DNA of 24,556 nt, taken from the IMG/VR virus record IMGVR_UViG_3300023180_000383, positions 1 through 24,556 of that record; one strand, given 5' to 3'. Both the position numbers and the translations under genes were made by a program. This stretch comes from a virus. The first letter of the stretch is position 1. Each line of letters starts with the position of its first letter. Under the pieces are notes generated by a model. It saw only the letters and a program-made list of their open reading frames with translations, had not been told where the DNA came from and searched no databases. Shown piece after piece: positions 12,001-24,556 of the stretch.

Positions 12001-14168
12001 AAGAAATCGTTACAGTTCAAAGCAGTGATGTACTAGTTATTCGTAAAAATACATCAGATGGTTCTTTTGTTCCTGATCCAAGAGCATATGATACTATTAT
12101 AACAGGCGGCGATTTAGCATACTCAACTGCAAGTGGTATTAATCCAGAAGATATTAATATTGACGGTGACGGTTTTGTTACTCCAACAACTTCTAAAGGT
12201 CCTGAGGAATTAATTCCAGGACAGGTGTTAGACACACTTGATATTAAAGTATTTGATAGAGTCGGTGAAGGTGGTAGTATTATTGAAAGTGTTTCCTACG
12301 TAGGAAACGGAACTAAGAAAGTTTATGACTTTTTAGGCTTGCCACAAAGCAAGGATGCTGTTTTTGTAAAAGTTAATAACATTATAATTTACAACTATAC
12401 AGTAGATTATAAAAACAAACAAATTACATTTGCAACTGCACCTGCATTGAACGACGAAGTTAATATCGTTACAATGAGTGGTAACGGTAACTTAATTCTT
12501 GATATGGATGTGTTTGAGGGCGACGGATCAACTATTCAGTTTGTAACAAGGGTTGATTGGAAAGAAAATCTTAATAGTATAGTAACTGTTAATGGCGAAA
12601 GAGTCAACTATGTATTAGAAACAACAGACAGTTCTTATGATACTGCAAATAAAGTTGTTATTAGTTTTGGTGCGCCACCTGCAGAAGGTTCGGTAATTAA
12701 TTACGCTGTTTATGCAAGTAACGCACAAACATTTAGTGAAATTAAAACTGATGTTCTCGAAGCAGACGGTAGTACAGCAACTTATAATCTAAGTATTACT
12801 CCGTTTAGTTCTTTACCATCAAGTCATAACTTAATTGTTAAAGTTGGTGATAAAATTCTTAACGCAGGATATAACGAATCATTTATTGTTGATAATAGAG
12901 TTGAATATCCATTACGTAACTGGCAACAGCCAGGTGGTACATTAGGTGCTAACGATATCTTAGTATTACTTAACGGTGTAGAACTTACATACACTTCAGA
13001 CTATATTTTCCGTCCAGCAAACTCTAGTATTGAAATTTTTGAAAATGTTAAGATACCTGGAGCAAAATTAGATATCTATGTAACTACAGATGGCGAATAC
13101 ACTGTAAGTGGAAATGCAGTTACACTCAACGATGTACCTGCAGAGTTTACACCTATTAGAGTTACGCATTTTAGTAAACATGATGTACAACAGATTAATC
13201 GTAAAAATTATGATATTGTAACAAGAACTACACTTAACTTTGAAAGTGCAGGAGAAATTGAGTATAATCATTTACTAGCAGGTTTAATTAGACTTGAAAG
13301 ACAAACAATTGATGCTGAATATGTTTGGATTGTTGTAAATGGTGTACTACAAACTCCGAGTGTTGATTACAAAGTTACTAATGACAGACTATTTGTACGT
13401 ATGGCTCAACCATTAAACGAAAATGATGTAGTTGAAGTTATCCAATTTGCAGAAGATGGTCCAACGGTTGCTAAGTTTGGATTTAGACAATTTAAAGATA
13501 TGTTAAATAGAGTAGTTTACAAGCGTTTAGGCGATGTTAACAAATACAGATTACTAAGAGATCTTGCACCATTGGACAAAGAAATTATTGTAGAAAATGG
13601 TGATAGTATGTTTATTCCTGATAAAACTAACAATGTTCCAGGGGTAGTGTTTATTAATGGCGAGCGTATTGAATATCTTGTAAAAGATGGCAATTCTCTA
13701 CAGCAATTACGTAGAGGAACGTTAGGTACTGGTGTTAAGGACATTCATAATATAGGTGATGAGTTATTTGACCAAGGATTCCAACAGACAGTGCCATATC
13801 AAGATAAGACTCTTGTTAACACATTTAATGGTGATGGCGTAACAACAGACTTTAACTTAGATTGGATGCCACGATCAGTAAATGAATTTGAAGTGTTTGT
13901 GGGCGGTAAACGATTAAGAAAAGCGGCAATACCAATGTTTGATGCTACACTTAATCAAGACTCGCCAGAAGGTGACGTAACAGCACCGGCAGAATTTAGT
14001 GTCAGCACAGGTGTATTGACACTAGTAACAGCACCAAGTGACGGTGTAAGAATAACAGTGGTTAGAAGGGTTGGTAAAGTATGGAATGACCCTGGAAAAA
14101 CACTAGGTAAGACAGAAAATGCTATTGCACAGTTCTTAAGAGCAGAAGAGGTTGACTTACCTAAATAA
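1..14168 (+). CDS. Giant phage virion (tail/baseplate-associated) structural protein, 5' partial
   Basis: The frame is open from the left edge (first full codon at base 3) to TAA at 14166-14168, giving at least 4,721 residues; the true start lies outside the window. A TTG at 213 lies in the same frame but has uninterrupted coding sequence before it, so it is not the start. No catalytic signature is evident; the sequence is beta-rich and modular. Modules in order: conserved-looking N-terminal part rich in aromatic and Asn/Asp residues; carbohydrate-binding-like modules near 3740, 4506, 5997 and 7829; seven FG-GAP-like blades between 5741 and 8682; a more alpha-helical section around 9600-9760 and 10550-10830; GxGY modules near 9876 and 11003; and beta-sandwich repeats from about 11330 to the end. 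It resembles the giant structural proteins of marine T4-like phages (family recognised by sequence style, not by search). Likely an extended tail, fibre or baseplate component contacting the host surface. Confidence 0.85.
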   Translation, partial: ETVEGVLAPGKFDAELYEADGYDTGEYIVQPVEGGITGFTDGENISTLFTDGVEAATVYVEKGTIKFTVPLDAPDKLFYISKDDVNTSGLITIYNIEENTEINVEEEILQKKTYQTRTDVELSNGMLVEFLGDVTPTKYSEGLWYVEGVGDSIKLINKADLEITGPYSANVYVPFDSENFDRLPFGQALNYPKDKDYITINRAAIDGNQWSRHNRWFHRDIVERVAKANDTVVDLDQSARATRPIIEFDPGLRLYNYGSKFKSNVDLVDTQTYDVFSTIEGSIGYNVDGIDLAEGLRVLFTADPDQRVNGRIYKVTFISYNGQRQIALKEEPDTEPLLDETVLVTSGVQNQGQIYWFNGTKWVKAQEKTKSNQAPKFNLYDADDISFDTYNSNTFTGTKIFSYKQGTGTNDTVLGFPLSYRNIENSGDIVFNFNLLTDKFTYQENQKDYTQQTDVATLRKYTDLTTYENVSGWKTAYQESTQKVVRQYIVEGQRNDFAVDVYDRSGDLNELNVKVFVNNDRRTDWELNRENGVAYVHFTSNLANGDILVLHCTSEADKNENGKYEFPINLQNNPLNENVVDFTYGEVNDHVASIIENVNNFSGKFPGLSNLRDIGDLSEYGTKFVQHSGALPLAMYHITNKNFNIIKALRYARKEYAKFKRSFIDIATNIGIDGNAKTVVNEIIKQWQSDKSKQSAFYWTDMIGSGANKTREFTVVDTGNKFYSLETPFNLDTISAKAVYVYLNDTQLLHNRDYTFTSEGFIKITDSVDLQLEDTILIYEYESTDASYIPPTPTKLGLWPLHIPRKFVDNSYQTPQTVIKGHDGSITKAYGDYRDDLILELEFRIYNNIKVKYDVNILDIDSFVGHKNRDTGFTRQDVNDIIITDFIEWLSIAGDPDYSAVDFYDRTNQFTWNYSTMQDPDGKALPGFWRAIYNEYLSTDTPHTTPWKILGYVEMPSWWEEVYGPAPYTNNNAILWEDLEAGRVREPNKPIRYRPNYARKGLSKTIPVDDRGNLVSPYESGYARGLIVPETNKQFVFGDEAPVETAWRRGSEYPFSILTAWLIHQPAKLIGLGFDRARIIRNTANQVVYSTTSKRVTPSSIVFPNGTDATVRVTTAGLVNYLFNYINADVTKLNETYSEEVTNIKCQLGFKVGGFTQKSKFKLLLDSRTPSNKGNVFIPEENYDIFFNVSSPVETVAYSGVIVEKRPNGYVLKGYDKSKPYFTYFKHLERAADPVINIGGVSANFLEWVPGERYQKGQIVRNGDTFFRVQVSGTFDSFNTNNFVKLAELPIDGGAEGILRRTFELGESKLLYGTLLPTRQDVIDFLLGYGKYLEKQGFSFENFNQEIETIENWELSAREFLFWTTQAWNDGSLITLSPSAIKLQFARDNAIVDNLFDNFYDYTLLKADGRKLREDFANTIRSNKNEFGLTLKNTADGIYFVKLPLVQKEHVVLIDNKTVFNDVIYNPAPGYRQARIKVLGYRSTGWNGSFDIPGFTYDNVVIKDWEPNTDYAIATVVKHKTFYYSAKYKIPGTTDFNDEDWIRLPEEPKSYMIPNFDYKANQFADFYDLDTSNFDSEQQKFAQHLIGYQNRTYLENVINDDVSQYKFYQGMIQDKGTKNSLIKFFDALSNTDKSSLEFFEEWAFKVGQYGASEGFDEVEFKINEADLRLQPQPFQLVNQIDPLATDLVYRYIPSDVYSKPTNYNHAPFPTKTLDESKTYIKTAGYVTEDDIDFKVTNYDDILDLDVKSISVGQYIWVAKRFQTFDVLRQSETDLKVTKIINSDSSQSIEITTRKTPKLEKDDIIGVLGTTPSTNRFYKVKRVSLNTIYAETSGEIEDAEETSGFIVRLESVRVPNLSNINEKVTRNNYTPNEKIWIDSDENGSWSVIQNSNSYSVQKQSFNATLAGVLGTDERGFGTSISANEINSIVAIGAPGVTLPGRVDLHFRASENLPLVLSQELDCPPNLFTGEESFGQSTAVTTDGKFIFVGIPYASNAKTNYKGNFNPGATYEDGSIVKYTNQFWRAKATVEPEDPSLDFNSFSSHVEQQVTTYDGENYDDFYFILRGNHTFVEDLADHVLIRAPKLQYDGTQIGDTLHLKWNDKNTRYPSGVQPFNGNQTLSGDFFTGEHLITEKVDDILLIDNTQAIPSVNETVSSDVAVGKVAYAYTTGDNRTIIYLKETNGDFANTGTLELGDIVVGDYERPVQQDDPAFGGWWRIDVGSSFVSTITIESKPFLVIKDIVTASQPRTPNSYANTYDSVDDLLDPGVPSYVETLTFNGDSGFEISDRWAFRLPKSIETDFAVGDTFKFWFNELRGLDNSLQQPTVLSPELTFAYLNRTDHVVDDIWNGWIEINLTNFDNSGSPTEGDQDYNPNYGNPYIPVVGDIVRDNDTLATAEVTYVEKVFNDLRLWLKNVSGTFKKGSEFGNISSISIVEGSQGAGVIRLVGTTKARYFNSNSLGPIIVVNRGENLTVGTARTLQNFEYWVYKTDILQGIPRSANPPSATNNDWARVYNVTATSVGTASNYTRQGAVAIYEKNNSNFYNLLEVLITPDADNYRHFGSKIDLVTNADGTYSAYISSRGNSTFVQPGRINTYNYSSSKGWVLGVDENYRGDFNTTVSYFEGEYTKYADKIYQANTNLIPGAFDSNDWTEIQTGVDLNGFIPNNTGFIVGEDSAIDSTNLYEFGVNYDVSDNGQVLATIVKYGDTIDSSIATPKLAIYRKLNGHFLFDQLIDAPNAGIGFGECVSVSKNGRWVVVGAPRYSEEYTNQGAVFVYQSINGRFQQVQILTGPKGLSNEKFGSTVVYDTDRLVISSAGGDLTSVTEFDDNTTVFDNGTTLFNTTLTDTGEVFVFELTGDRYVYGDKLELSDPRALYFGKILYAKGNHIYAGLPSYVRAETTVPGSVIDFRSSPNARLWEKIRQDRQVVDLDKFKGILLYDETTKQTDEYIDFIDPLQGKIAGPAEVELSFKTTYDPASYNVATTNAVVKDATTYNTTNLVGKLWWDIDAVRFINPYANTGSIFSVSNTFNTVFPGTEVEIYEWVETELTPEQWDEQADSEEGLTQGISGKSKYGMEAYSTRRVYDEPAQKFTTYNYFWVRNKVTVPNVPGRTLSAASVQQLISNPSGAGYKFATMLKNNEWTLHNLQSSIKGDSTILKFSYWTIPYTDRNVHNQYRILTDGLETSRPKSDLELKWFDSLIGFDGQGREVPDRFLSLKDKYGILNNPRQGMFVNRIEALKQFIERVNSVMLKYILIDEFDLSPLTSSDPKPTLASRRYDLEIDSEKELDYVSVGKVQPAVLSATIQDGRVLRVDIISSGRGYKTVPTVELVSATGEGADIRLTINNVGAVTEAEVINQGQNYLQTDRISVRKFTVLVTSDSTYSNRWSLYEYVGGTIPWNRIVSQSFDVDPYWYYTDWYAENWNALTKTDFVIDNPYELESINDTFGDIVKINNVGSGGWLMLRKIDDQPNVDYTVNYQTIGRENATIQFSKALYDFSEDLVGYDSFGYDDSAFDLIPVQELRIILQTIRDNIFIDNLAIHYNELFFAQMRYVLTEQNFVDWMFKTSFIKAKHNVGKLRKDITFNNDWLPSYEAYVEEVKPYKTKIREYLSTYESLEETGTTVTDFDLAPFYSDVKGRIIPRTEKVIDDTIQGTAITDYPAKHWLDNASFKIKDIDIADAGSGYENAPGVEFVGGGGSGAKAIAYVGGGKITEIKITNPGTGYLSAPEIILNGSVADGGKVGRAVAIIGDTNLRTTHMTVKFDRVTGTFFITSLEETESFVGTGGKYSFKLKWPIDVRTDKVTVTVAGDEVLSGEYNVTNIDDSNGRTHSRKIGQLTFDAPPANNKSIVIEYRKDINLLTAADRINLFYDPQTGQLANDLGQLLDGIDYGGVQVKSFDFGGGSGWSADAWFTSAYDTYDNTFEDEVFRIGDDSTRVYDFSNPLETGIEYNVYLNGTRIDDPNFNTVNQTNPNALIPSITGAGQTGFILIDDGTQVESTVIKFDEEIVTVQSSDVLVIRKNTSDGSFVPDPRAYDTIITGGDLAYSTASGINPEDINIDGDGFVTPTTSKGPEELIPGQVLDTLDIKVFDRVGEGGSIIESVSYVGNGTKKVYDFLGLPQSKDAVFVKVNNIIIYNYTVDYKNKQITFATAPALNDEVNIVTMSGNGNLILDMDVFEGDGSTIQFVTRVDWKENLNSIVTVNGERVNYVLETTDSSYDTANKVVISFGAPPAEGSVINYAVYASNAQTFSEIKTDVLEADGSTATYNLSITPFSSLPSSHNLIVKVGDKILNAGYNESFIVDNRVEYPLRNWQQPGGTLGANDILVLLNGVELTYTSDYIFRPANSSIEIFENVKIPGAKLDIYVTTDGEYTVSGNAVTLNDVPAEFTPIRVTHFSKHDVQQINRKNYDIVTRTTLNFESAGEIEYNHLLAGLIRLERQTIDAEYVWIVVNGVLQTPSVDYKVTNDRLFVRMAQPLNENDVVEVIQFAEDGPTVAKFGFRQFKDMLNRVVYKRLGDVNKYRLLRDLAPLDKEIIVENGDSMFIPDKTNNVPGVVFINGERIEYLVKDGNSLQQLRRGTLGTGVKDIHNIGDELFDQGFQQTVPYQDKTLVNTFNGDGVTTDFNLDWMPRSVNEFEVFVGGKRLRKAAIPMFDATLNQDSPEGDVTAPAEFSVSTGVLTLVTAPSDGVRITVVRRVGKVWNDPGKTLGKTENAIAQFLRAEEVDLPK
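3740..3862 (+). repeat. Carbohydrate-binding-like module 1 (CBM5/12 style) in the giant protein
   Basis: About 41 residues with the pattern W-x-x-G-x-x-Y-x-x-G-x-x-V-x-x-x-G-x-x-F/Y, followed by a short loop and a closing hydrophobic strand. This is the layout of CBM5/12 (chitin-binding type 3-like) modules, where exposed aromatics stack on sugars. Three further copies occur in the same protein. Sugar binding is inference. Confidence 0.5.
4506..4637 (+). repeat. Carbohydrate-binding-like module 2 in the giant protein
   Basis: It begins KDWEPNTDY, continues with a V-V-K-H-K-x-F-Y-Y-S-A core and closes with D-x-D-W-I-R-L. The opening Trp, central aromatic strand and closing D-W-x-x-L match the CBM5/12-like layout of module 1. 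The G of the usual Y-x-x-G turn is replaced by A. Divergent copy. Confidence 0.5.
5997..6126 (+). repeat. Carbohydrate-binding-like module 3, inserted after propeller blade 2
   Basis: It begins YKGNFNPGATYEDGSIVKY and continues N-Q-F-W-R-A-K, with acidic loops and a P-S-L-D-F end. It has the same Y-x-x-G-x-x-V-x-Y-x-x-x-x-W-x-A scaffold as the other copies. It sits at the start of the long insertion that separates FG-GAP-like blades 2 and 3. Confidence 0.5.
7829..7959 (+). repeat. Carbohydrate-binding-like module 4, inserted between propeller blades 3 and 4
   Basis: It begins YRGDFNTTVSYFEGEYTKY and continues D-K-I-Y-Q-A-N, ending F-D-S-N-D-W-T-E-I. The Y-x-x-G-x-x-x-x-Y-x-x-x-x-Y-x-A core and closing D-W match modules 1-3, and the opening (Y-K/R-G-N/D-F-N) is closest to module 3. 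Modules 3 and 4 thus decorate the propeller, while 1 and 2 lie N-terminal to it. Confidence 0.5.
9876..10100 (+). repeat. Gly-rich GxGY module 1 in the giant protein
   Basis: Two tandem half-repeats follow the pattern I/V-x-S/N-x-G-x-G/N-Y-x-x-x-P/D-x-V/I. The first centres on SSGRGYKTVPTVEL and the second on NQGQNYLQTDRISV. A related copy lies about 1.1 kb downstream. Likely a small beta domain; function unknown. Confidence 0.5.
11003..11190 (+). repeat. Gly-rich GxGY module 2 in the giant protein
   Basis: Two half-repeats, ADAGSGYENAPGVEF and TNPGTGYLSAPEIIL, flank a Gly-rich loop. This is a cleaner version of the module near 9876, with both GxGY-x-x-x-P turns intact. Probably structural. 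Confidence 0.55.
11330..14090 (+). repeat. C-terminal array of degenerate beta-sandwich repeats in the giant protein
   Basis: Several repeats of about 65-90 residues follow the pattern G-x-G-S/T-x-x-x-F/Y-x-L, then V-x-V-N-G-x-x-x-x-x-x-D/N-Y-x-V, then I-x-F-x-x-A-P-x-x-x-x-x-I-x-V. Clear copies start near 12295 (YVGNGTKKVYDF), 12504 (FEGDGSTIQFV), 12755 (LEADGSTATYNL) and 13822 (FNGDGVTTDFNL); weaker copies lie near 11330 and 13290. Such chains usually form elongated stalks in phage tail proteins. The array ends about 25 residues before the stop. Confidence 0.55.
12291..12308. repeat. Perfect 18-bp palindrome inside the giant gene
   Basis: GTTTCCTACGTAGGAAAC reads identically on both strands, and the next base pair outward breaks the symmetry. 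It lies in coding sequence at the start of one beta-sandwich repeat. It could be coincidence; no function is assigned. Confidence 0.6.
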
Positions 14169-14808: not shown

Positions 14809-16884
14809 ATGGCATATACTATTAATTACACGGATATAACTAACAAGGGTAGTATTGTCATTGAAGATAACACAGTTGACACTACAACAAGTTTAAATAT
14901 TCCGGGTAGATTTACAACAGATTACGGAACTCTAATAGGACAAAACTTTTTACAACTATTAGAAAATTTCGCTAACAGTTCAGCACCCCCAAGACCAATT
15001 GAAGGTCAGTTATGGTATGATACAAACGTTGGTGTTAACTTACTTAAATTATATGATGGCACCAACTGGATCGAAGCCGGCGGCTTAAAGCGTGGAGATG
15101 TTGCTCCTAATGTTGCTAATTCAGTAGCAGGTGACCTTTGGGCAGATACTGATAACCAACAACTTTATTTGTTTACTGGTTCGGGTTGGATTTTAGTAGG
15201 ACCAGAATTTAGTGAAGGACTAGCGGCTGGTGTTAAACCTACAACATTGACAGGCACTGACAACGTAAACTATACTGCATTACAAGTTGAGATTGGTGGT
15301 AAAGTTCTTGCAATTTATACTTCAAGTGCGTTTACACCTAAAGCAACTATTCAAGGATTTAGTTCATTAAAACCAGGTTTTAACATGAGCACCGTAAACA
15401 TTACAGGTGCAGGTGTTCCTAAGTATTATGGTATTGCAGAGAAAGCAGAATCACTAATTGTTTCAGGTGAATCAGAGCCTGTACTTGCTTCTAACTTTTT
15501 AAGAGGCGACAAAGCATCAACATCAAATCAATCTTTAACAATTAAAAATAATACAGGTGTATTAGTTGGTAGTGATGCCGTTATGCAAATTGGTATCGAA
15601 GGCCAGAACGCTATTATTTCAAATAACACTTCGGGTGCAAATATTGATTTAAGAGTTAATAATGCAGGCGACTTACAGCCGGTAGTTAGAATTGACTCAA
15701 CACAAAAAGTTGGTATTAACAATTTATCACCAGCAGAAGCACTTGATGTTAATGGTAATGCTATTATTTCAAACAATTTAATTGTTAATGGTATTGCAGA
15801 AGCAGTAAACATCGGAACAGGTTCTATTATTGCTAAAGGTGGTTTAGGTGTTGCCAAGAGTGTTAGAATTGGAAACGCATTAGAAGTTAATGGACCAACA
15901 ACTATTGGTGATAATGTATTGCCAGATGTTACAAACTCTATTAGTATTGGCTCAACAGATTTTAAATTTGCAGAAATTAACGCAAACACATTTAGAGGTA
16001 ACCTAGTTGGTAACGTAACAGGTACAGTTACAGGACGTTCAGGTAGTTCAGATAAACTAGCAAGTAGAACAACATTTACGGTTAGTGGTGATGTTACAGC
16101 ACCAAACATTATTTTTGATGGTCAATATACAGCACCAGGCGAAACAACACTTGTAAAGAATTTTGAAATTAGTGTAAACAGTACTTTTGTTACAAATAAA
16201 CCTAGTGTTCCAACATCAAGATTTGATGACGAATTTTTAATTAACAGACTTAATGACGAAAATGGTAGCGGTACAGGTCTTAAAAAGATTTCACGCAGTA
16301 ACTTGTTTTCAGCATTACCAGTTAATCCGGTAGGTATTATTACACCTTACGCAGGTGATGTATCAAACGAAGATACACTTGAAATTGCAGGTTGGTTATT
16401 CTGCGATGGTAGAGAATTGTTTATTACAGAATGGCCTGAATTATATGCTGTCATTGGTACTAAGTATAAAGCAAACCCTGCATTAGGTAAATTTGCTTTA
16501 CCCGACTTGCGTGGTAGATTCCCACTAGGTCAAGATAACATGGGTACAACCCAAGGACCGGCAAATAGAGTAACAGACGAAAACGCTGATACACTAGGCG
16601 GTACAGCAGGTGTTGAAGCAAAACCAATTGAAGTTAAAAACTTACCAGAACACGAACACGATTTACGTGGACCAAGCGGAACACAATATTATGTTTCACG
16701 AGATGTATCAGGTGCAACACAAGATGCAGATGCAACAGTTTCAGATGCACCAACTGGTACTAATGCAGGACAGAAATTCCCATTCTCAGGCGGCGTGGTA
16801 AGTAACACAGCAGTAGGACAAGATTTTAATATTATGAATCCTTACTTGGCTGTTAACTATCTAATTTACGCGGGGGCAAAATAA
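14809..16884 (+). CDS. Tail fibre-like protein with C-terminal phage tail collar domain, 691 aa
   Basis: ATG 14809 follows GAGGGG (14796-14801), spacing 7. The N-terminal ~170 residues (MAYTINYTD; EGQLWYDT near residue 65; GDLWADTDNQQLYLF; WILVGPEF) are shared with the next two genes and probably anchor the fibre to the virion. A middle section carries the fibre motif KVGINNLSPAEALDVNG (near residues 300-316) and a strand-rich repeat region. Residues ~508-580 form a phage tail collar domain: GIITPYAGD, then GWLFCDGRELFITEWPELYA, then PDLRGRFPLGQDNMG. The C-terminus has PEHEHDLRG and ends IMNPYLAVNYLIYAGAK, also typical of collar-domain fibres. The stop overlaps the next ATG by one base (TAATG), suggesting translational coupling. 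Likely a trimeric receptor-binding fibre; the receptor is unknown. Confidence 0.8.
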   Translation: MAYTINYTDITNKGSIVIEDNTVDTTTSLNIPGRFTTDYGTLIGQNFLQLLENFANSSAPPRPIEGQLWYDTNVGVNLLKLYDGTNWIEAGGLKRGDVAPNVANSVAGDLWADTDNQQLYLFTGSGWILVGPEFSEGLAAGVKPTTLTGTDNVNYTALQVEIGGKVLAIYTSSAFTPKATIQGFSSLKPGFNMSTVNITGAGVPKYYGIAEKAESLIVSGESEPVLASNFLRGDKASTSNQSLTIKNNTGVLVGSDAVMQIGIEGQNAIISNNTSGANIDLRVNNAGDLQPVVRIDSTQKVGINNLSPAEALDVNGNAIISNNLIVNGIAEAVNIGTGSIIAKGGLGVAKSVRIGNALEVNGPTTIGDNVLPDVTNSISIGSTDFKFAEINANTFRGNLVGNVTGTVTGRSGSSDKLASRTTFTVSGDVTAPNIIFDGQYTAPGETTLVKNFEISVNSTFVTNKPSVPTSRFDDEFLINRLNDENGSGTGLKKISRSNLFSALPVNPVGIITPYAGDVSNEDTLEIAGWLFCDGRELFITEWPELYAVIGTKYKANPALGKFALPDLRGRFPLGQDNMGTTQGPANRVTDENADTLGGTAGVEAKPIEVKNLPEHEHDLRGPSGTQYYVSRDVSGATQDADATVSDAPTGTNAGQKFPFSGGVVSNTAVGQDFNIMNPYLAVNYLIYAGAK

Positions 16885-19001
16885 TGGCATATCAGATTAA
16901 TAAGACAGACGGCGACTTACTAGTAGAATTAGTTGATGGACAACTTAATACACAAACTACTGACATTTCACTAATTGGTCGTAACTACTCTGGTTTTGGT
17001 GAGCCTATTAATGAAAACTTTGTTAAAATATTAGAAAACTTTTCTAATTCACAAGCACCTGCTAATCCACTTACAGGTCAACTTTGGTATGACACAGGTG
17101 AAGCAAGACTTAAAATTTTTAACGGTAGCCAATTTAAAAGTGCAGGCGGACCAATTGTTAGTCCAACACAACCTCAATTAGTTGCTGGAGACCTTTGGAT
17201 TGACAATCAAAACAACAAATTATATTTTTACGATGGAACTGATTTAGTATTAGTTGGTCCGGACTTTGCAACTTCTGAAGGCACAAGTGGTTTCACAACA
17301 GAAACAATTTTAGATACTACACAAACTAACAGAACTATTGTTAAATTAAATGTTGGCGGACAAGTAGAAGCAGTCCTTTCTAATATTAGATTTACACCAA
17401 ACACAAGTAATCCTATTAACGGTATTACTGGTGTTGTAGAAAAAGGTATTAATATCCTTGATAGTGATTTTAAATTACACGGTACAGCAACATCGGCAGA
17501 TACAATTATTAACGCACAAGGCGTTAAGAAAAATGCATCACAGTTTATGGCCACTGATGCTAACTCAACTACCAATGGTACTATCACTACAATTAACAAT
17601 GGCGGTATTACAGTAGGACCAGAAGACAACGTTGCTCTTAAGATTGTAAACAACCAAACAGTGTTATCAAATGCTGTACGTGATAGAAACTTTGAATTAA
17701 CAGTAAGAAAATCAAGCGGTACAACAAGTGCAATTAAAGTTAATACTGCTCAAAGTTACTTAGGTATTTTTAATTCAAGTCCACAAGCAACACTAGATGT
17801 TGGTGGTGATGTTATTATTTCAGGTAACTTGTCAGTACAAGGTGAAACATTTAATACAGATGTTGAAAACTTAAGAATTAAAGATATTAATATTGAACTT
17901 GCACTAGCATCTGATAGTACATTGTTAACAGATGCTCAAGTTGATAACGCAGGTATTATTGTTCGTTCAACACCTAATGATAAAGAGTTTTTATGGAAGA
18001 ATGCAACAAACGCATTTACAACAAATACATATTATGATTCAACACAAGGTTACAAGTTTAACGGTAACACAATGGTTTCAATGGCAGGTAGTCCTGCTGT
18101 TCCAACACTTAATCATATTATTGACGCACCTGATTTACAAACAGTTGGAACACTAACAGAACTACAAGTTGACAATGTTAATATTAACGGACCAACAATT
18201 AGTACAACTACTAATGAACTTCAATTAACAAGTTCAACAAATGAAATTAGTGTATTAAACAATAGAATTACAAATCTAGGCACACCAACAGTTGATGCTG
18301 ATGCGGCAACTAAAAAATATGTTGACGATTCGATTGATAACGAAGGTGTTGTTATGGCATTGAATATCACTGGATTAGGTTATGATCCTAATCAAAATGG
18401 TGGTACCACATTTGCAAATAATATTACTACATTGCTAGAAGAAATTGTTCCAGCAAGTACTAAGAAAAATGGAAGCCAAGCAAAGATTCATGCTACAGAC
18501 CAAACGGCGGCAGTAGCAACTCTATCGGCGGCAGACATGAATAATGCACTAGAAGAAAGTACAGTATCAGTTGATAAAACTGTTACAGTATCAACAAGAA
18601 CAATTATAGGTGTAACAACAGGTGTTACAACTATTTTACAATTAGATGCAGTTCACGGATATGATGCAGGCCGTAGCGTAATTATCGCAGGAGCAACATA
18701 TAATACAGGAACAGCATGGGCAAACTTAAATGGAACATGGAATATTGACAGAATTGTTAGTTCAACTGAAATAGAAGTGTCAGCAAACACTAGTACTGAT
18801 GGTGCATTTGCTTACGATGCTTCAAGTGGTACTACGCAACGTGTTACAGAAGTCGGCCAAGAAAACGAAGATGTGCTAAAAGACGTAGAATTTAGTGATG
18901 TAACTGGATCGGTAACACTAACAGTTAACAGATATGTCGTTACTTGCACAGTAAACGGGGGTGCTTGGACATTTACAAGCGGTGCAAACTCAGCGGTATG
19001 A
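16884..19001 (+). CDS. Tail fibre-like protein, paralogue 2, 705 aa
   Basis: ATG 16884 shares one base with the previous stop, and GGGGG at 16872-16876 is the ribosome site. The N-terminus (MAYQINKTD; TGQLWYDTGEARLKIFNG; GDLWIDNQNNKLYFYDG; LVLVGPDF) is paralogous to the genes on either side. The centre has SSPQATLDVGGDVIISGNL (near 17775-17830), a fibre motif also present in the preceding gene. Near residues 463-484, RITNLGTPTVDADAATKKYV matches the ritNLgxPxxxxDAatKkYVD linker common in long-tail-fibre proteins. The C-terminal ~200 residues differ from both paralogues and are Thr/Val/Ser-rich. They include two stretches (near 18590-18820 and 18900-18990) that look like beta domains; I do not recognise a family. 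It ends 34 bases before the third paralogue, with a late-promoter-like box in the gap. Confidence 0.75.
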   Translation: MAYQINKTDGDLLVELVDGQLNTQTTDISLIGRNYSGFGEPINENFVKILENFSNSQAPANPLTGQLWYDTGEARLKIFNGSQFKSAGGPIVSPTQPQLVAGDLWIDNQNNKLYFYDGTDLVLVGPDFATSEGTSGFTTETILDTTQTNRTIVKLNVGGQVEAVLSNIRFTPNTSNPINGITGVVEKGINILDSDFKLHGTATSADTIINAQGVKKNASQFMATDANSTTNGTITTINNGGITVGPEDNVALKIVNNQTVLSNAVRDRNFELTVRKSSGTTSAIKVNTAQSYLGIFNSSPQATLDVGGDVIISGNLSVQGETFNTDVENLRIKDINIELALASDSTLLTDAQVDNAGIIVRSTPNDKEFLWKNATNAFTTNTYYDSTQGYKFNGNTMVSMAGSPAVPTLNHIIDAPDLQTVGTLTELQVDNVNINGPTISTTTNELQLTSSTNEISVLNNRITNLGTPTVDADAATKKYVDDSIDNEGVVMALNITGLGYDPNQNGGTTFANNITTLLEEIVPASTKKNGSQAKIHATDQTAAVATLSAADMNNALEESTVSVDKTVTVSTRTIIGVTTGVTTILQLDAVHGYDAGRSVIIAGATYNTGTAWANLNGTWNIDRIVSSTEIEVSANTSTDGAFAYDASSGTTQRVTEVGQENEDVLKDVEFSDVTGSVTLTVNRYVVTCTVNGGAWTFTSGANSAV

Positions 19002-19002
19002 C

Positions 19003-19010
19003 GATAAATA
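19003..19010 (+). promoter_or_regulatory. T4-late-promoter-like box GATAAATA
   Basis: GATAAATA matches NATAAATA and lies in a 34-base intergenic gap directly after a TGA stop. It is 25 bases upstream of the next ATG (19036), with the ribosome site AAGGGG (19021-19026) between. This position fits a late promoter giving separate transcription of the third fibre gene and the genes after it. Confidence 0.5.
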
Positions 19011-19035: not shown

Positions 19036-20514
19036 ATGGCATACATTATTAACAAAACCGACGGTTCGCAGATTTCAGTAGTCGAAGACGGTACTATCGA
19101 CCAGACTACCGACCTTAAACTAGTTGGTAAAAACTACGCTGGTTACGGTGAAATACAAAACGAAAACTTTGTTCACCTACTAGAAAACTTTTCTAGTGCT
19201 AATCAGCCAAGCAGAGCAATCCGAGGTCAAATTTGGTTTGACGCCGGTACTAGCAAATTAAAATTTTATGACGGTACTAAGTTCCGTACAACAGGTGGTG
19301 CAGAAGTAAGTGCTACACAGCCTTCGGGTTTAACAGAAGGTGATTTTTGGTGGGATAATCAAAACAATCAGTTGTATGCAAACACTGGTGCAGGATTTAT
19401 ATTAATTGGTCCACAATCTCAAGGTAGCACAGTTACATCGTGGATCACTGATACTATTAGAGATATTGCTCAAACGCAAAGAACAGTTATCAAAGGTACT
19501 GTTAACGACGAAGTAGTTGTTGTACTTTCGGCTTCAGACTTTACTATTGACTCATCCGACCCCGACAATGCCATTACAGGATTTGACGTAGTACATAGAG
19601 GTATGACCCTAAAGAATACAACTAATGCACAGCAAGGTGTTACATCCACTGCACACAGATGGTGGGGTACTGCTACAGACTCTGATAAACTTGGTGGTAG
19701 AGATGCTAGTGAGTATGTTGTATCAATTCCAGGACAAGAATCATCATTTACTGAAATTGTAAGATTTTCAGATGCAGGCTTTACAGTTGGTAACTCAAAC
19801 GATTTAAAAGTTGCTATTGAAAACGACAACCAAGCAGTTATTTCAAACGAAGTTGGTACAGTAATTAGATTTAAAGTTGATAATGCACAAGCACAATCAA
19901 CAGAGTCAGTACAAATTAAAGCAGAAGGTATTTTACCAGGTGCTAACAATACCTACAATTTAGGTAGTGCAAACACTAAATGGGCAAATATTCATGCTAC
20001 TACATTTAACGGTACAGCAACATCAGCCAACGCAATGGTTGTTGGACAAAACAATAGAACTGCAAGTACAAGTGCTACTAATGACACAGTAGCAGTTCGT
20101 GACAGTTCAGGTAACTTATCGGCAAACCTATTCCAAGGTGTTGCTACAGAAGCACGTTACGCTGACTTAGCAGAAAAATATACTACTGGCGAAGAATTAC
20201 CAGTTGGTACTATTGTTTCAGTTTGCAATCACGATGCACACGAAGTTGATGCTTGTGGTATTGATGACACACCAATTGGTGTTATTTCTGGCAAACCTGC
20301 ATTCTTAATGAATGCTGAGGCAGAAGGCCAAGCAGTTGCACTAAAAGGTCGAGTTCCTGTAAGAGTAATTGGTCCAGTTAATAAAGGTGACAAGTTATAT
20401 GCAGGTCCTAATGGTACAGCACAAAAAGCCAATGAAGGTGATTTAATTGGTGTTGCATTAGAGTCAAACGATAGACATGAAGAAAAACTAGTAGAAGCAG
20501 TTCTAAAAGTATAA
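19036..20514 (+). CDS. Tail fibre-like protein, paralogue 3, with a C-terminal DLAEKY-type domain, 492 aa
   Basis: ATG 19036 follows AAGGGG with 9-base spacing. The N-terminus (MAYIINKTDGSQISVVEDG; RGQIWFDAGTSKLKFYDG; GDFWWDNQNNQLYANTG; FILIGPQ) is the shared attachment-like domain. The middle (ISNEVGTVIRFKVDN; LPGANNTYNLGSANTKWANI; ATTFNGTATSANAM) parallels the middle of the first fibre gene. From about residue 375 (ARYADLAEKYTTGEELPVG) to the end there is a compact beta domain with GVISGKPAFLMN, VALKGRVPVRVIGPVNKGDK and DLIGVALES motifs. This kind of C-terminal domain recurs in marine phage fibres and resembles the Peptidase_G2-like autocleaving chaperone module, but I cannot assign a cleavage site or confirm catalysis. 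It probably acts in trimerisation or tip formation. Confidence 0.75.
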   Translation: MAYIINKTDGSQISVVEDGTIDQTTDLKLVGKNYAGYGEIQNENFVHLLENFSSANQPSRAIRGQIWFDAGTSKLKFYDGTKFRTTGGAEVSATQPSGLTEGDFWWDNQNNQLYANTGAGFILIGPQSQGSTVTSWITDTIRDIAQTQRTVIKGTVNDEVVVVLSASDFTIDSSDPDNAITGFDVVHRGMTLKNTTNAQQGVTSTAHRWWGTATDSDKLGGRDASEYVVSIPGQESSFTEIVRFSDAGFTVGNSNDLKVAIENDNQAVISNEVGTVIRFKVDNAQAQSTESVQIKAEGILPGANNTYNLGSANTKWANIHATTFNGTATSANAMVVGQNNRTASTSATNDTVAVRDSSGNLSANLFQGVATEARYADLAEKYTTGEELPVGTIVSVCNHDAHEVDACGIDDTPIGVISGKPAFLMNAEAEGQAVALKGRVPVRVIGPVNKGDKLYAGPNGTAQKANEGDLIGVALESNDRHEEKLVEAVLKV

Positions 20515-20528
20515 GGAAGAAGTAGAAA

Positions 20529-21461
20529 ATGGCAATTATTACAGCGGCAAGATATAACGATTTACAAGCCAAAGTTGCTAATATTTTAGGCAACGGTAGT
20601 GGCGAACAAGGTTATGGACAAACTTTAACAAGTTCTCAAGTAGCCGCTGAAACTGTTATTGACTCTCAACATATGTCAGACTTATATACTGACATGGTCA
20701 AATGTAGAGTACACCAAGTTGGTAGTGTTCCTCAATCAATTGCTACTGTTTCTGTAGGTAACGTAATTGAAGAAGACAGTTCCGATACAGGTACAGCACG
20801 TGGTATTGTACAGTACGAAGCACTTGCTGATACTATTGTTGACGACAAAGACTTAATTTATACTGCTGATACATCACAGAGCACAATTACTGCTTCAAAA
20901 GTAGCATCAACAAGAACTGCATCATGGGCAGGTGTTGTTGACCATATTGTTACAGTAACATGGCCAAGTGCAGATGCACGTAGACACTTTTTTAATGCCG
21001 GCGGCGAAATTCGTTTTACAGCAGATTTAGATCCAGATGTTTCAAACGGTAAAAACAATGACTGGAATAACTTACTTTCTCAAATGGGAGTAGTAAGTTT
21101 TAAAGCACAAACTTGTACATCAAATGGTACTTCACCAGGCACAAGTTTCAATCTTGGAAATTTTGATATAACTAGTACAGATCAATTAGTATTCCAAAAA
21201 GACGGTTCGGGCGTATATGCAGAAAACGATTACAACATTAAAGTTAAAGAACTTAGTGCCCTACAACTACAATTTACAATTCAATTCCGTGATGATGACG
21301 CAGGCGATGACGCAGGCGACTCAAACAATGACGGTGCAATTAACCCAATTGACGAAAGCGTAACAGGTACACTAGAAAGTGTTGTAGGCGAAAGACTGCC
21401 TACTGGTGCTAATGTTTCTCTTTCTACTCCAGCATACGCAACCACAAACAACCTAGCATAA
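20529..21461 (+). CDS. Probable virion structural protein with a dockerin/EF-hand-like loop, 310 aa
   Basis: ATG 20529 is preceded by AAGGAAG (20513-20519), 9-base spacing, and lies 14 bases after the third fibre gene, so it is probably co-transcribed. The protein begins MAIITAARYNDLQAKVANIL, a short helical start followed by beta-rich sequence. Near residues 256-276 it has two DDAG units followed by DSNNDGAINPIDE. This matches the D-x-N-x-D-G-x-I-N-x-x-D calcium-binding loop of dockerin/EF-hand type. There is no signal peptide or membrane segment. Its position at the end of the virion block suggests a structural role such as a fibre-associated or tail protein. I recognise the type from marine T4-like phages but cannot name a characterised homologue. 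Confidence 0.6.
   Translation: MAIITAARYNDLQAKVANILGNGSGEQGYGQTLTSSQVAAETVIDSQHMSDLYTDMVKCRVHQVGSVPQSIATVSVGNVIEEDSSDTGTARGIVQYEALADTIVDDKDLIYTADTSQSTITASKVASTRTASWAGVVDHIVTVTWPSADARRHFFNAGGEIRFTADLDPDVSNGKNNDWNNLLSQMGVVSFKAQTCTSNGTSPGTSFNLGNFDITSTDQLVFQKDGSGVYAENDYNIKVKELSALQLQFTIQFRDDDAGDDAGDSNNDGAINPIDESVTGTLESVVGERLPTGANVSLSTPAYATTNNLA
21294..21317 (+). repeat. Perfect 12-bp tandem repeat (two copies) encoding DDAG-DDAG
   Basis: GATGACGCAGGC occurs twice in direct succession, in frame, immediately upstream of the codons for the D-x-N-x-D-G loop. In-frame units of this kind can expand or contract by slippage without breaking the gene. Confidence 0.8.
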
Positions 21462-21484
21462 CTTAAAACATAGTAAATATTGCT

Positions 21485-21829
21485 ATGGATGAGAAGTTAG
21501 AAAAAGCCTTGGAATTTGGCAATTATTCTGCCACGTTAGATAACCAAAAACGTATGTTACACGAAAAGTTTGTAACAGACTCTATCTATTTTACCAACGG
21601 CGGCCAATTCACTATATCAAAAGAACTTATTAACTATGTTAACATTTTGGTTAACACTGGGCAAGAGTCATCTGTTTTGATTGACGACAACGATATTCCG
21701 ATTGAGATAGCAGATGTTGAAGACTTCTATTCAAACATCACAAACAAATACTTTGTTGCTCTAAACGATTATCATATAGCATATAAAAAGTTAGAGTCAA
21801 GCAGAACGGTTGACGGCTTAGTAGAATGA
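21485..21829 (+). CDS. Small conserved-looking phage protein of unknown function, 114 aa
   Basis: ATG 21485 is the only plausible start: the next in-frame ATG (residue 24) would remove much of the first helix. No Shine-Dalgarno sequence precedes it (AGTAAATATTGCT only). The protein begins MDEKLEKALEFGNYSATLDN and is acidic. It has a helical N-terminus, a central segment QFTISKELINYVNILVNTG, then SSVLIDDNDIPIEIADVEDF and a helical C-terminus. No catalytic motif, signal or membrane segment is visible. It resembles small conserved proteins next to fibre genes in marine T4-like phages, of unknown role. Its stop overlaps the following start (ATGA), so the two genes are likely translationally coupled. 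Confidence 0.6.
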   Translation: MDEKLEKALEFGNYSATLDNQKRMLHEKFVTDSIYFTNGGQFTISKELINYVNILVNTGQESSVLIDDNDIPIEIADVEDFYSNITNKYFVALNDYHIAYKKLESSRTVDGLVE

Positions 21830-22644
21830 CAAATGGTGTACTTTTATTTGCATACAACAATGCTCAAATAGATTATGTTGCACAGGCTTGCTTTTTAGCA
21901 AAGCGTGTAACACAGTACCTTAACCTTCCTACAACTCTTGTTACTGACGATAAAAAACGTGTAGAAGAATACTACGACTCTAGTGTATTTGACAATATTG
22001 TTGTACTAGATAACAAACGCTGGAATAAAAAAACATATGCTGATGGTAGTTTATCTAAAAAAACACTAGACTTTAAAAATTATAATCGTACAGATGCATA
22101 CGATGTAACACCATATGATAATACGCTAATACTTGATACAGATTATATTATTTCAAACAGTTTATTAGCAAACTGTTTTGACAGTGTAAACGATTTAATG
22201 ATGTATTCAAGTGCAGTTGATATTACAGGCTGGCGCAATACAGACGAATTTAAATTAATTAGTGAAACAAGTATAAAATTTTATTGGGCAACTTGTGTAT
22301 TTTTTAGAAAAAACAACAAAAATAAGATTTTCTTTAACTTATTAAAACACATTAAAGAAAACTATCAACACTATCGTAACCTATATCAAATTACAAGCAC
22401 AGTGTATCGCAATGACTATGCGTTTAGTATTGCGGCACACATTGTTGGTGGTGTAAAAGAGTTACCAGGAAGAATGATTTATAGTACACATAACGATGTA
22501 CTGAATAAAATTGATAACGAAAACATAAAGTTGCTTGTTGAAAAACAAAATAGAACAGGCGAATATACATTATTAAAAACAAGTGGCATTAATATTCACG
22601 TTATGAACAAGTTTAGTTTAAACAGGGAAATAGCCAATGCCTAA
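21826..22644 (+). CDS. Putative GT-A-fold glycosyltransferase, 272 aa (tandem copy 1)
   Basis: ATG 21826 overlaps the preceding stop by four bases (ATGA), consistent with coupling. The N-terminal half has the alternating strand/helix look of a nucleotide-sugar-binding domain: GVLLFAYNN, then QACFLAKRV, then PTTLVTDDKK. A DxD motif follows at residues 104-106 (LILDTDYII). In GT-A enzymes this Asp pair coordinates the metal bound to the sugar nucleotide. Downstream are WATCVFFRKNN and YRNDYAFSIAAHIVGG, placed where acceptor-binding residues of GT8-like enzymes lie. There is no signal peptide or membrane segment, so a cytoplasmic enzyme is expected. It shares length and layout with the next gene. 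Donor and acceptor are unknown; virion proteins or host glycans are possible targets. Confidence 0.6.
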   Translation: MTNGVLLFAYNNAQIDYVAQACFLAKRVTQYLNLPTTLVTDDKKRVEEYYDSSVFDNIVVLDNKRWNKKTYADGSLSKKTLDFKNYNRTDAYDVTPYDNTLILDTDYIISNSLLANCFDSVNDLMMYSSAVDITGWRNTDEFKLISETSIKFYWATCVFFRKNNKNKIFFNLLKHIKENYQHYRNLYQITSTVYRNDYAFSIAAHIVGGVKELPGRMIYSTHNDVLNKIDNENIKLLVEKQNRTGEYTLLKTSGINIHVMNKFSLNREIANA

Positions 22645-23455
22645 TTTTACAGTCCTTGCACAAAATAACGAAGACAATTACATACGTCAAGCAGAATTAC
22701 TAGCAATGAGTATTAGGAATACTAACCCTAAAAGTAAAATATGCCTAATTACAAATGATGTAGTAGAAAACAAAGAACTGTTTGACGACATTGTACCTAT
22801 TCCTTGGGAAGATGCCGGCGAAGAACACAAATGGAAAGTACAAAACCGTTGGAAGATATATCATGCTTGTCCATATGACGCAACTTTTGTGCTAGATACT
22901 GATATGTTAGTACAACAAGATCTGTCAAACTGGTGGAACTTGATGCAAAATTATGATGTGTTCTATACAACAGCAGTTACAGACTACAAGTTTGAAAAAC
23001 CTGACACAAGTTACTATAGAAAAATGTTTATAGAAAACAAATTACCAGACACTTATGTAGCATTGCACTACTTTAAGAAGTCAGACTTTGCAAAAAAGTT
23101 TTATACTTGCTTAGAAGAAGTAATGAAGAACTGGGAATACTATTATGAAAAGTATGCTCCTAAGAAAATGCAAAAGTTTTTAAGTGTAGATGTATGTACA
23201 GCAATTACTATTAGAGTTTTAGACTGTGAACATTTAGTTACTAACAAAAAGTTACCGTTTCCTACTTTTGTACACATGAAGCCATACTTACAAAGTTGGA
23301 AAACACAAACAAAGAAATGGCAAGACAGAATTACTTGTTTTGTTGATGACGATTTAAATTTAAGAGTTGGTGGTTGGTTACAAAACACAGTGTTCCACTA
23401 TACAGAAAAAGATTTTACAGGAAAGTTTTATGACAGATTTAAAAGATTGGACTGA
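22637..23455 (+). CDS. Putative GT-A-fold glycosyltransferase, 272 aa (tandem copy 2)
   Basis: ATG 22637 lies inside the end of the previous gene (8-base overlap), with AGGGA at 22623-22627 as ribosome site. The protein begins MPNFTVLAQNNEDNYIRQAE, continues KICLITNDV, then has a DxD motif at residues 87-89 (FVLDTDMLV) followed by WWNLMQNYDVFYTT. This is the same strand order as the preceding 272-residue protein, so the pair looks like an old tandem duplication. The C-terminal half is richer in aromatics and Lys (VALHYFKKSDFAKKFY; FVHMKPYLQSW; NTVFHYTEKDF), and His/Lys near the end could serve in phosphate binding, as in GT8-like enzymes. Substrates are unknown. Confidence 0.65.
   Translation: MPNFTVLAQNNEDNYIRQAELLAMSIRNTNPKSKICLITNDVVENKELFDDIVPIPWEDAGEEHKWKVQNRWKIYHACPYDATFVLDTDMLVQQDLSNWWNLMQNYDVFYTTAVTDYKFEKPDTSYYRKMFIENKLPDTYVALHYFKKSDFAKKFYTCLEEVMKNWEYYYEKYAPKKMQKFLSVDVCTAITIRVLDCEHLVTNKKLPFPTFVHMKPYLQSWKTQTKKWQDRITCFVDDDLNLRVGGWLQNTVFHYTEKDFTGKFYDRFKRLD
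23419..23425 (+). promoter_or_regulatory. Ribosome-binding site that fixes the start at 23430
   Basis: AGGAAAG lies four bases before ATG 23430. No such site precedes the in-frame ATG at 23367, so the shorter protein is preferred. Confidence 0.65.
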
Positions 23456-24011
23456 AGTTCCTATAAAACCAGCACCAACATATGCTAACTTTAATGTAAC
23501 TACTGGTTACATTGATAGTTTTAGCGACTCGCCTCTTGGCGAACATAGTATTGAAGTTGAATACGATAGTGTTAGAGATATTATCGAAGGCAAAGCATTT
23601 TACAAACACTACAAAGTATTGTTTAATCCTGCATCAACTATGTATGAACTTGTAAATGTACACGAAGAAAAAGCATACGAGTACAATGTTAATAATAGTT
23701 TTTACAAAGTACAAGAAAATGATAGTGCAGATATTATTTTAGTTAAAAATTACATAACGCAACAATGGGAATTAACATTTGGTAAATTGTTTCAAAAAAC
23801 ACTAGATAAAAACAATGTAACATTACAAACTAAAAAACAATTTAGTATTGTAAAGAAAAATGACCCATATGTTCTATATAGAGAATTAAATTTTGATTTA
23901 AGTTCAAACGATTTAGTCTTGCAATTTAATGAAAATGATAGTATAATAGAGTTTGACGTTTACACTACTAAAGTCTTTAACAGTTACGGAGTACAAGTTG
24001 TCAAAAATTAA
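23430..24011 (+). CDS. Beta-rich protein of unknown function, 193 aa
   Basis: The frame extends upstream to an ATG at 23367, but ATG 23430 is preferred. It has AGGAAAG just upstream, and the first 21 residues of the longer version lie entirely over the end of the previous gene. Even so there is a 26-base overlap with that gene. The protein begins MTDLKDWTEVPIKPAPTYAN and is rich in alternating hydrophobic/polar strands (SIEVEYDSVRDI; HYKVLFNPASTMYELVNV; LVLQFNENDSIIEFDVY). It has no Cys, no membrane segment and no catalytic signature I can recognise. It is sandwiched between glycosyltransferase-like genes and overlaps both, so it is likely made with them. An acceptor, binding partner or accessory subunit is a guess from position only. 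Confidence 0.6.
   Translation: MTDLKDWTEVPIKPAPTYANFNVTTGYIDSFSDSPLGEHSIEVEYDSVRDIIEGKAFYKHYKVLFNPASTMYELVNVHEEKAYEYNVNNSFYKVQENDSADIILVKNYITQQWELTFGKLFQKTLDKNNVTLQTKKQFSIVKKNDPYVLYRELNFDLSSNDLVLQFNENDSIIEFDVYTTKVFNSYGVQVVKN
23988..23991 (+). promoter_or_regulatory. Ribosome-binding site GGAG for a TTG start
   Basis: GGAG lies six bases before TTG 23998, the best-supported start of the last gene. An earlier in-frame TTG at 23953 has no comparable site. Confidence 0.55.
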
Positions 24012-24556
24012 AATACAAGATGTTGATATTATCTTTTTAAGTTATGACGAGCCTAATGCTGAAGAAAATTGGGCAGACTTAAAACGTAAAGTGCCTTGGG
24101 CAAAAAGAGTACACGGTGTTGAAGGCAGTGATGCCGCACATAAAGCCTGTGCCGATTTATCAGATACAAAACATTTTGTAACAGTTGACGGTGACACTAT
24201 TGTTGATCCTCGATTTATGCAAGTTGAATTAGACTTAGACAAACTAGGTGTAGATGACGACTATCAATTTAGTTGGTGCGGTAAAATTGATGTTAACGGA
24301 CTTATGTACGGTAACGGAAGTTTGAAGATGTGGACAAAAGAGTTTGTAAAGAATATGCGTACACACGAAAATACAGACGGTACAAACGAAACTAGTATTG
24401 AGTTTTGTTATTTTGACAACTATTATCAACTAAACGAAAACTATAGTAGCAGTATTATTACAGGCAGTCCTTTACAAGCATGGAGAGCAGGCTTTCGTGA
24501 AGGTGTAAAGATGTCATTAGATAGGGGTACTAAGGTAACTGATATTGAAGAACAGT
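23998..24556 (+). CDS. Putative family-2-like glycosyltransferase, TTG start, 3' partial
   Basis: An open frame runs from stops at 23944-23949 to the right edge, with no early ATG; TTG 23998 with GGAG six bases upstream is the likely start. The visible 186 residues begin (M)SKIKIQDVDIIFLSYDEPNA. They continue EENWADLKRKVPWAKRVHGV, then a short helix (AAHKACADL), then FVTVDGDTIVDPRF with D-G-D at residues 64-66. This order of an opening strand with SYDEP, a helix, V-x-G-V-x-G, an A-rich helix and a DxD-like motif matches GT2-type GT-A domains. Later segments (FSWCGKIDVNGLMYGNGSLKMW; GSPLQAWRAGFREGVKM) could form the acceptor side. It overlaps the previous gene by 14 bases. The C-terminus lies beyond the window. 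Confidence 0.65.
   Translation, partial: MSKIKIQDVDIIFLSYDEPNAEENWADLKRKVPWAKRVHGVEGSDAAHKACADLSDTKHFVTVDGDTIVDPRFMQVELDLDKLGVDDDYQFSWCGKIDVNGLMYGNGSLKMWTKEFVKNMRTHENTDGTNETSIEFCYFDNYYQLNENYSSSIITGSPLQAWRAGFREGVKMSLDRGTKVTDIEEQ

Follow-up and report, generated by a model that had tools for sequence, protein, structure and literature searches.

A conserved predicted glycosyltransferase unit behind the tail fibre genes of uncultured T4-type jumbo phages

The window analysed here is the whole of IMG/VR record IMGVR_UViG_3300023180_000383 (24,556 bases), which represents part of a phage genome. A block of tail fibre genes is followed by a series of overlapping genes, and the features that concern this study are:

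14809–16884, + strand: f1, MAYxINxTD-type fibre/collar protein (Pfam Collar, weak Gp10_C)
16884–19001, + strand: f2, MAYxINxTD-type fibre protein
19003–19010, + strand: GATAAATA, T4-late-promoter-like motif before f3
19036–20514, + strand: f3, fibre with a C-terminal Peptidase_G2/intramolecular-chaperone-like domain
20529–21461, + strand: g310, homologue of PA5oct gp360
21472–21479, + strand: AGTAAATA, late-type motif before g114
21485–21829, + strand: g114, 114-aa protein, first gene of the unit, no assigned function
21826–22644, + strand: GTA1 (272 aa), predicted GT-A/GT8-type glycosyltransferase paralogue, D104/D106 invariant in 52/52 relatives
22637–23455, + strand: GTA2 (272 aa), predicted GT-A/GT8-type glycosyltransferase, D87/D89 invariant in 54/54 relatives, family profile matching glycogenin
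23430–24011, + strand: U193 (193 aa), beta-rich, fast-evolving partner; rare long homologues with CBM5/12-like repeats
23998–24556, + strand: GT2, third predicted GT-A-type enzyme, TTG start, open at the contig end; D64/D66 invariant in 51/51 relatives

The initial annotation had described the last four genes as a cassette, and its open reading frames, DTD motifs and overlaps (4, 8, 26 and 14 bases from g114 through to GT2) are all present in the sequence. The unit seems, however, to begin one gene earlier, at the 114-aa gene (21485), and to possess its own promoter-like element, a new reading based on a sequence motif. Its gene order is promoter-like element, g114, GTA1, GTA2, U193, GT2 and, usually, a twitch radical SAM gene, into which the unit runs on in relatives; in the window that position is past the contig end. 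No hydrophobic or membrane segment is apparent from hydropathy in the window's cassette proteins, and the same is true of nearly all relatives. None of the four cassette proteins matched a named family in Pfam, PHROGs or NCBIfam, and the only database matches with weight were to the function-less phrog_1903 (GTA2 relatives) and to the radical SAM family NF033640 (downstream gene). Ahead of the fibres, positions 3–14168 hold a giant open reading frame that runs in from beyond the contig start and encodes 4721 aa or more; it is presumably structural, with weak FG-GAP and CBM5/12 matches.

Scans of IMG/VR returned 224 relatives for GTA2 and at least 599 for GT2, and the best 80 per scan were examined, so that more distant fibre lineages lacking the unit may exist. 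The order fibre, g310, g114, GTA1, GTA2, U193, GT2 is maintained across relatives, the cassette order being conserved in about 160 IMG/VR loci. This conservation, the recurrence of the short −4/−8 overlaps, and a dN/dS of about 0.09–0.16 in the one pair of relatives computed, which indicates purifying selection in that pair, argue that the cassette is not a chance arrangement. As a guard against circularity, an independent scan was seeded with fibre f3, and contigs with at least 6.5 kb downstream were counted: GTA1, GTA2, U193 and GT2 are all present in 49 of these 50 contigs. Co-occurrence with fibres, proposed in the initial annotation as a check, is therefore borne out, and the functional grouping of these genes is supported. 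The sole exception, L221, holds the first three genes with an extra g310 copy ahead of them; its fourth gene may have been cut off by an enlarged g310, and other copies of this contig type do contain an enlarged g310 that would shift the last gene past the contig end. GTA1 and GTA2 each occur once per record in 13/13 phage records. The region is thus very probably a conserved glycosyltransferase unit of this lineage. The sugar genes downstream of it vary among relatives, while the enzyme set itself is nearly invariant. In L087 (10465–16483), for instance, an opposite-strand cluster lies past the radical SAM gene, with a DegT-type aminotransferase followed by a UDP-sugar dehydrogenase, and this too varies among relatives. 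In two close relatives, L005 (8794–9357) and L007, GTA2 and U193 are separated by an inserted 2OG-Fe(II) oxygenase-like gene.

GTA1 and GTA2 carry the motif LDTD at residues 103–106 and 86–89, respectively. Judged by sequence the two are paralogues, with 27% identity over the middle and an hhalign probability of 99.8%. Neither matched a Pfam family, and a search of the PDB with the GTA2 profile identified glycogenin (E = 4.6e-5) across the DxD-bearing region; the likeness is confined to about 100 residues and comprises the N-terminal GT-A region with its DxD, common to both. The aspartates of this motif are invariant in all relatives aligned, as listed above, and so are those of GT2; a loss of DxD among homologues, named in the initial annotation as counter-evidence, was thus not seen. 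Assignment of both proteins as GT-A/GT8-type glycosyltransferases, with a predicted role in sugar transfer, is thereby supported, as had been suggested for the tandem pair from its DTD motifs.

GT2 belongs to a separate family, with VDGD as its DxD motif. The gene is complete in relatives, encoding 296 aa in L087 (8001–8891). Sequence searches of Pfam and the PDB gave no significant match. A structure model (pLDDT 93.3) has its best PDB matches in SunS/ThuS, WrtF and TarP, with E-values of about 1e-4 to 1e-3 and a TM-score of only about 0.3, and sugar nucleotidyltransferases are also among the matches. The model suggests that GT2 is likely a GT-A-type nucleotide-sugar enzyme. For the tandem pair, the GT-A fold originally proposed is accordingly backed by the sequence profile; for this fourth gene the backing comes from a model and is weaker.

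The capsid protein gp23 was found in seven of the 13 larger relatives. In one of them it is nearest to that of Vibrio phage 2.275.O (71%), followed by Phosso, PA5oct and Serratia BF, and by this marker the lineage is one of uncultured, mostly marine T4-type jumbo phages near PA5oct and Vibrio 2.275.O. The block is present on a 335-kb contig from a Neomarinimicrobiota bin, which fits a jumbo size. Such MAG bins (Neomarinimicrobiota, Rickettsiales and others) were set aside as host evidence, since they appear to combine phage contigs with genomes unrelated to them. A tblastn search of the phage collection returned no relative of any cassette protein tried. T4 glucosylates its own DNA, and a T4-type capsid protein raises the idea that the unit acts on phage DNA with hydroxymethylated or other hypermodified bases. 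This is very improbable: the unit is located between fibres and sugar genes and not with nucleotide metabolism, thymidylate-synthase-family proteins are found in just 2/13 phage contigs (fragments), and GTA2 matches glycogenin, not DNA glucosyltransferases.

In phage PA5oct, the f3 homologue carries the annotation of a virion protein found by mass spectrometry, and the record of PA5oct gp360, the g310 homologue, notes ESI-MS/MS detection. NTAAATA, the motif of T4 late promoters, is found in the gap before f3 in 48/48 non-redundant relatives, versus about 10% expected. The gap before g114 differs. A sigma70-type element (TTGAC(A/T)-N16-18-TATAAT-like, score of at least 10 of 12) is present there in 37/58 non-redundant loci, versus 3% expected, and the combination of a sigma70-type element before the unit with a late-type one before the fibre occurs in 36–37/58; NTAAATA is found before g114 in 20/58, the two types being nearly mutually exclusive. 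Score thresholds for these elements were chosen once the motif was already known from the gaps, which makes the precise counts descriptive; neighbouring gaps and simulated sequence differ from them by a wide margin. On the GTA2 tree, two promoter-type changes suffice as a minimum, with the late type marking two clades, including that of the window, and the sigma70 type spanning deeper branches. Since the unit appears to have its own element, and the fibre is always late-type, coupling to the fibres would be positional and not always transcriptional: the tight coupling that the initial annotation had proposed holds for position, and is weaker for transcription. Upstream of GT2, sigma70-like matches fall inside the U193 coding sequence and were disregarded as promoters. 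In the window (21462–21487), the late-type motif lies a few bases before the g114 ATG, with no clear ribosome-binding site visible, as in the window's clade; the g114 message might be leaderless.

A comparable arrangement has been described in pelagimyophages and cyanomyophages, T4-type marine phages whose host recognition cluster has fibres behind the conserved structural gene VrlC, along with GT8-type glycosyltransferases, sugar genes and radical SAM cassettes (PMC7029224). The two are alike in that fibres, glycosyltransferases, sugar genes and radical SAM genes follow a structural gene. However, the pelagimyophage region is hypervariable and non-syntenic (PMC7029224), whereas the unit described here is fixed and nearly invariant. 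The GTA2 and GT2 profiles gave no match in HTVC008M or P-SSM2, in searches run without a positive control inside either record. Moraphages, large aquatic phages that are mostly freshwater, count four glycosyltransferase orthologous groups among their core groups (PMC12619734); the likeness to the present lineage, also of large aquatic phages with core glycosyltransferases, is by description only. Mycobacteriophages likewise encode glycosyltransferases, and in that case glycans were observed on subunits of the capsid and of the tail tube (Freeman 2023, cited in PMC12619734), whereas an acceptor in the present system is only proposed. In gtrABC serotype-conversion modules there is a GtrA translocase and membrane-bound partners, in contrast to the cassette proteins with their lack of hydrophobic segments; the GtrA family had no match in 13 phage contigs (fragments), in a search in which positive controls were detected. 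Glycosyltransferases near phage fibres have so far been read as variable host-surface genes. Here they form a fixed core unit in a widespread uncultured lineage, with an unnamed partner family and a change from one promoter type to another, and whether the target is the virion or the host surface is thereby directly testable.

The explanation that I tentatively favour, whose chance as a whole falls somewhat short of even, is that the unit is a core glycosylation system of the cytosol whose acceptor the phage itself encodes. GTA1, GTA2 and GT2, as three soluble GT-A enzymes, would transfer sugars one after another to this acceptor, which would travel with the phage and would most likely be a tail or fibre protein, or U193 or g114, with U193 serving as an acceptor-binding partner or as a glycan-bearing protein. 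That the acceptor travels with the phage is suggested by the near-invariance of the enzyme set while the downstream sugar genes vary, an argument that assumes diverse hosts for the lineage. The single copies of GTA1 and GTA2, the solubility of the proteins, the lack of a GtrA match and the mass-spectrometric detection of g310 and fibre homologues point the same way, and virion glycosylation by the unit is plausible on these grounds. The late-type promoter motif in the window's clade also counts for a phage-encoded acceptor. Against it, the unit is sigma70-type and the fibre late-type in most loci, which would fit early, host-directed action; this timing is not decisive, and a sigma70-type element is no proof of an early, non-virion function, because such elements are also found ahead of second g310 copies. 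Related fibres are moreover encoded by jumbo-phage isolates, two of whose records also hold homologues of the preceding 204-aa gene, and the GTA2 and GT2 profiles had no match in five such isolates (with no positive control within the records), which would suggest that these fibres do not need the unit.

Nearly as likely is a role at the host surface, where the enzymes and the variable downstream sugar genes would alter the LPS or capsule of the infected cell; such an alteration could, for example, block superinfection or keep released virions off debris. This possibility is consistent with the GT8 type of the enzymes, with the downstream DegT-type aminotransferase and UDP-sugar dehydrogenase, and with the sigma70-type element, which most relatives have and which extends over the deeper branches of the GTA2 tree, where the minimum is two type changes. 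Homologues of GT2 occur on contigs of Alphaproteobacteria and Bdellovibrionota, next to radical SAM genes or further glycosyltransferase genes, and O-chain modification has been proposed for similarly placed pelagimyophage enzymes (PMC7029224). An enzyme acting on host glycans would nonetheless be expected to follow the host's acceptor, in contrast to the near-invariant set next to varying downstream genes, and both the lack of GtrA in the phage contigs tested (n = 13) and the late-type motif in the window's clade weigh against it. As a separate observation, in several Bdellovibrionota and related MAGs (L279, L282, L285, L287 and L290) GT2 homologues sit in clusters that also hold several radical SAM genes, some of them related to the gene for the phage twitch radical SAM protein.

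The initial annotation singled out U193 as the most interesting candidate partner. Direct matching with its sequence found four relatives only, while an iterated profile identified the family in 162 loci, and it is located between GTA2 and GT2 in 154/164 loci. Non-redundant relatives share a median of 24% identity with the window sequence; by sequence, U193 is a real, fast-evolving family in a constant slot. Its structure model is confident (pLDDT 89.9) and beta-rich, without a significant match in the PDB; Hsp90 and other PDB fold matches were rejected as not significant, and a BFVD search matched solely uncharacterised or unnamed proteins. A few longer forms (278–445 aa) have inserted repeats resembling CBM5/12 modules, with E-values that are individually weak but concordant (Pfam 0.009–0.05, best PDB 0.09, chitinase/chitin-deacetylase domains 0.26–0.7).

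These features bear on a special case of the phage-encoded acceptor, with which its likelihood overlaps: U193 (or g114) could itself be the primary acceptor, a glycoprotein or primer for the glycogenin-like enzymes and not a helper in fibre glycosylation. Glycogenin glycosylates its own tyrosine, and the resemblance of GTA2 to it, the slot filled in nearly every relative, the unmatched beta-rich fold, its rapid change and the CBM5/12-like repeats would all agree with such a role. It is unlikely, as only four positions of the U193 alignment reach 90% conservation, with no acceptor residue identified, and three distant relatives hold only a shorter, unrelated-looking protein of 100–116 aa in the slot. 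A broader proposal, still doubtful, is that a glycan is assembled by the paired glycogenin-like GT8 enzymes together with the third transferase, on either U193 or a fibre as the phage-encoded acceptor, with U193 representing a new glycan-bearing or glycan-binding family. This would amount to a dedicated phage protein-glycosylation machine across a whole jumbo-phage lineage.

A side observation concerns the genes behind the fibre of Agrobacterium phage Atu_ph07. The window's lineage was screened for a Cys-rich tail of the kind described below, and none turned up. In Atu_ph07 (L167:15388–22460), several radical SAM-like proteins are encoded behind the fibre, near a 296-aa protein that ends in CHSSCHASCHNSRSRR, and this ending looks like a tail modified by radical SAM enzymes.
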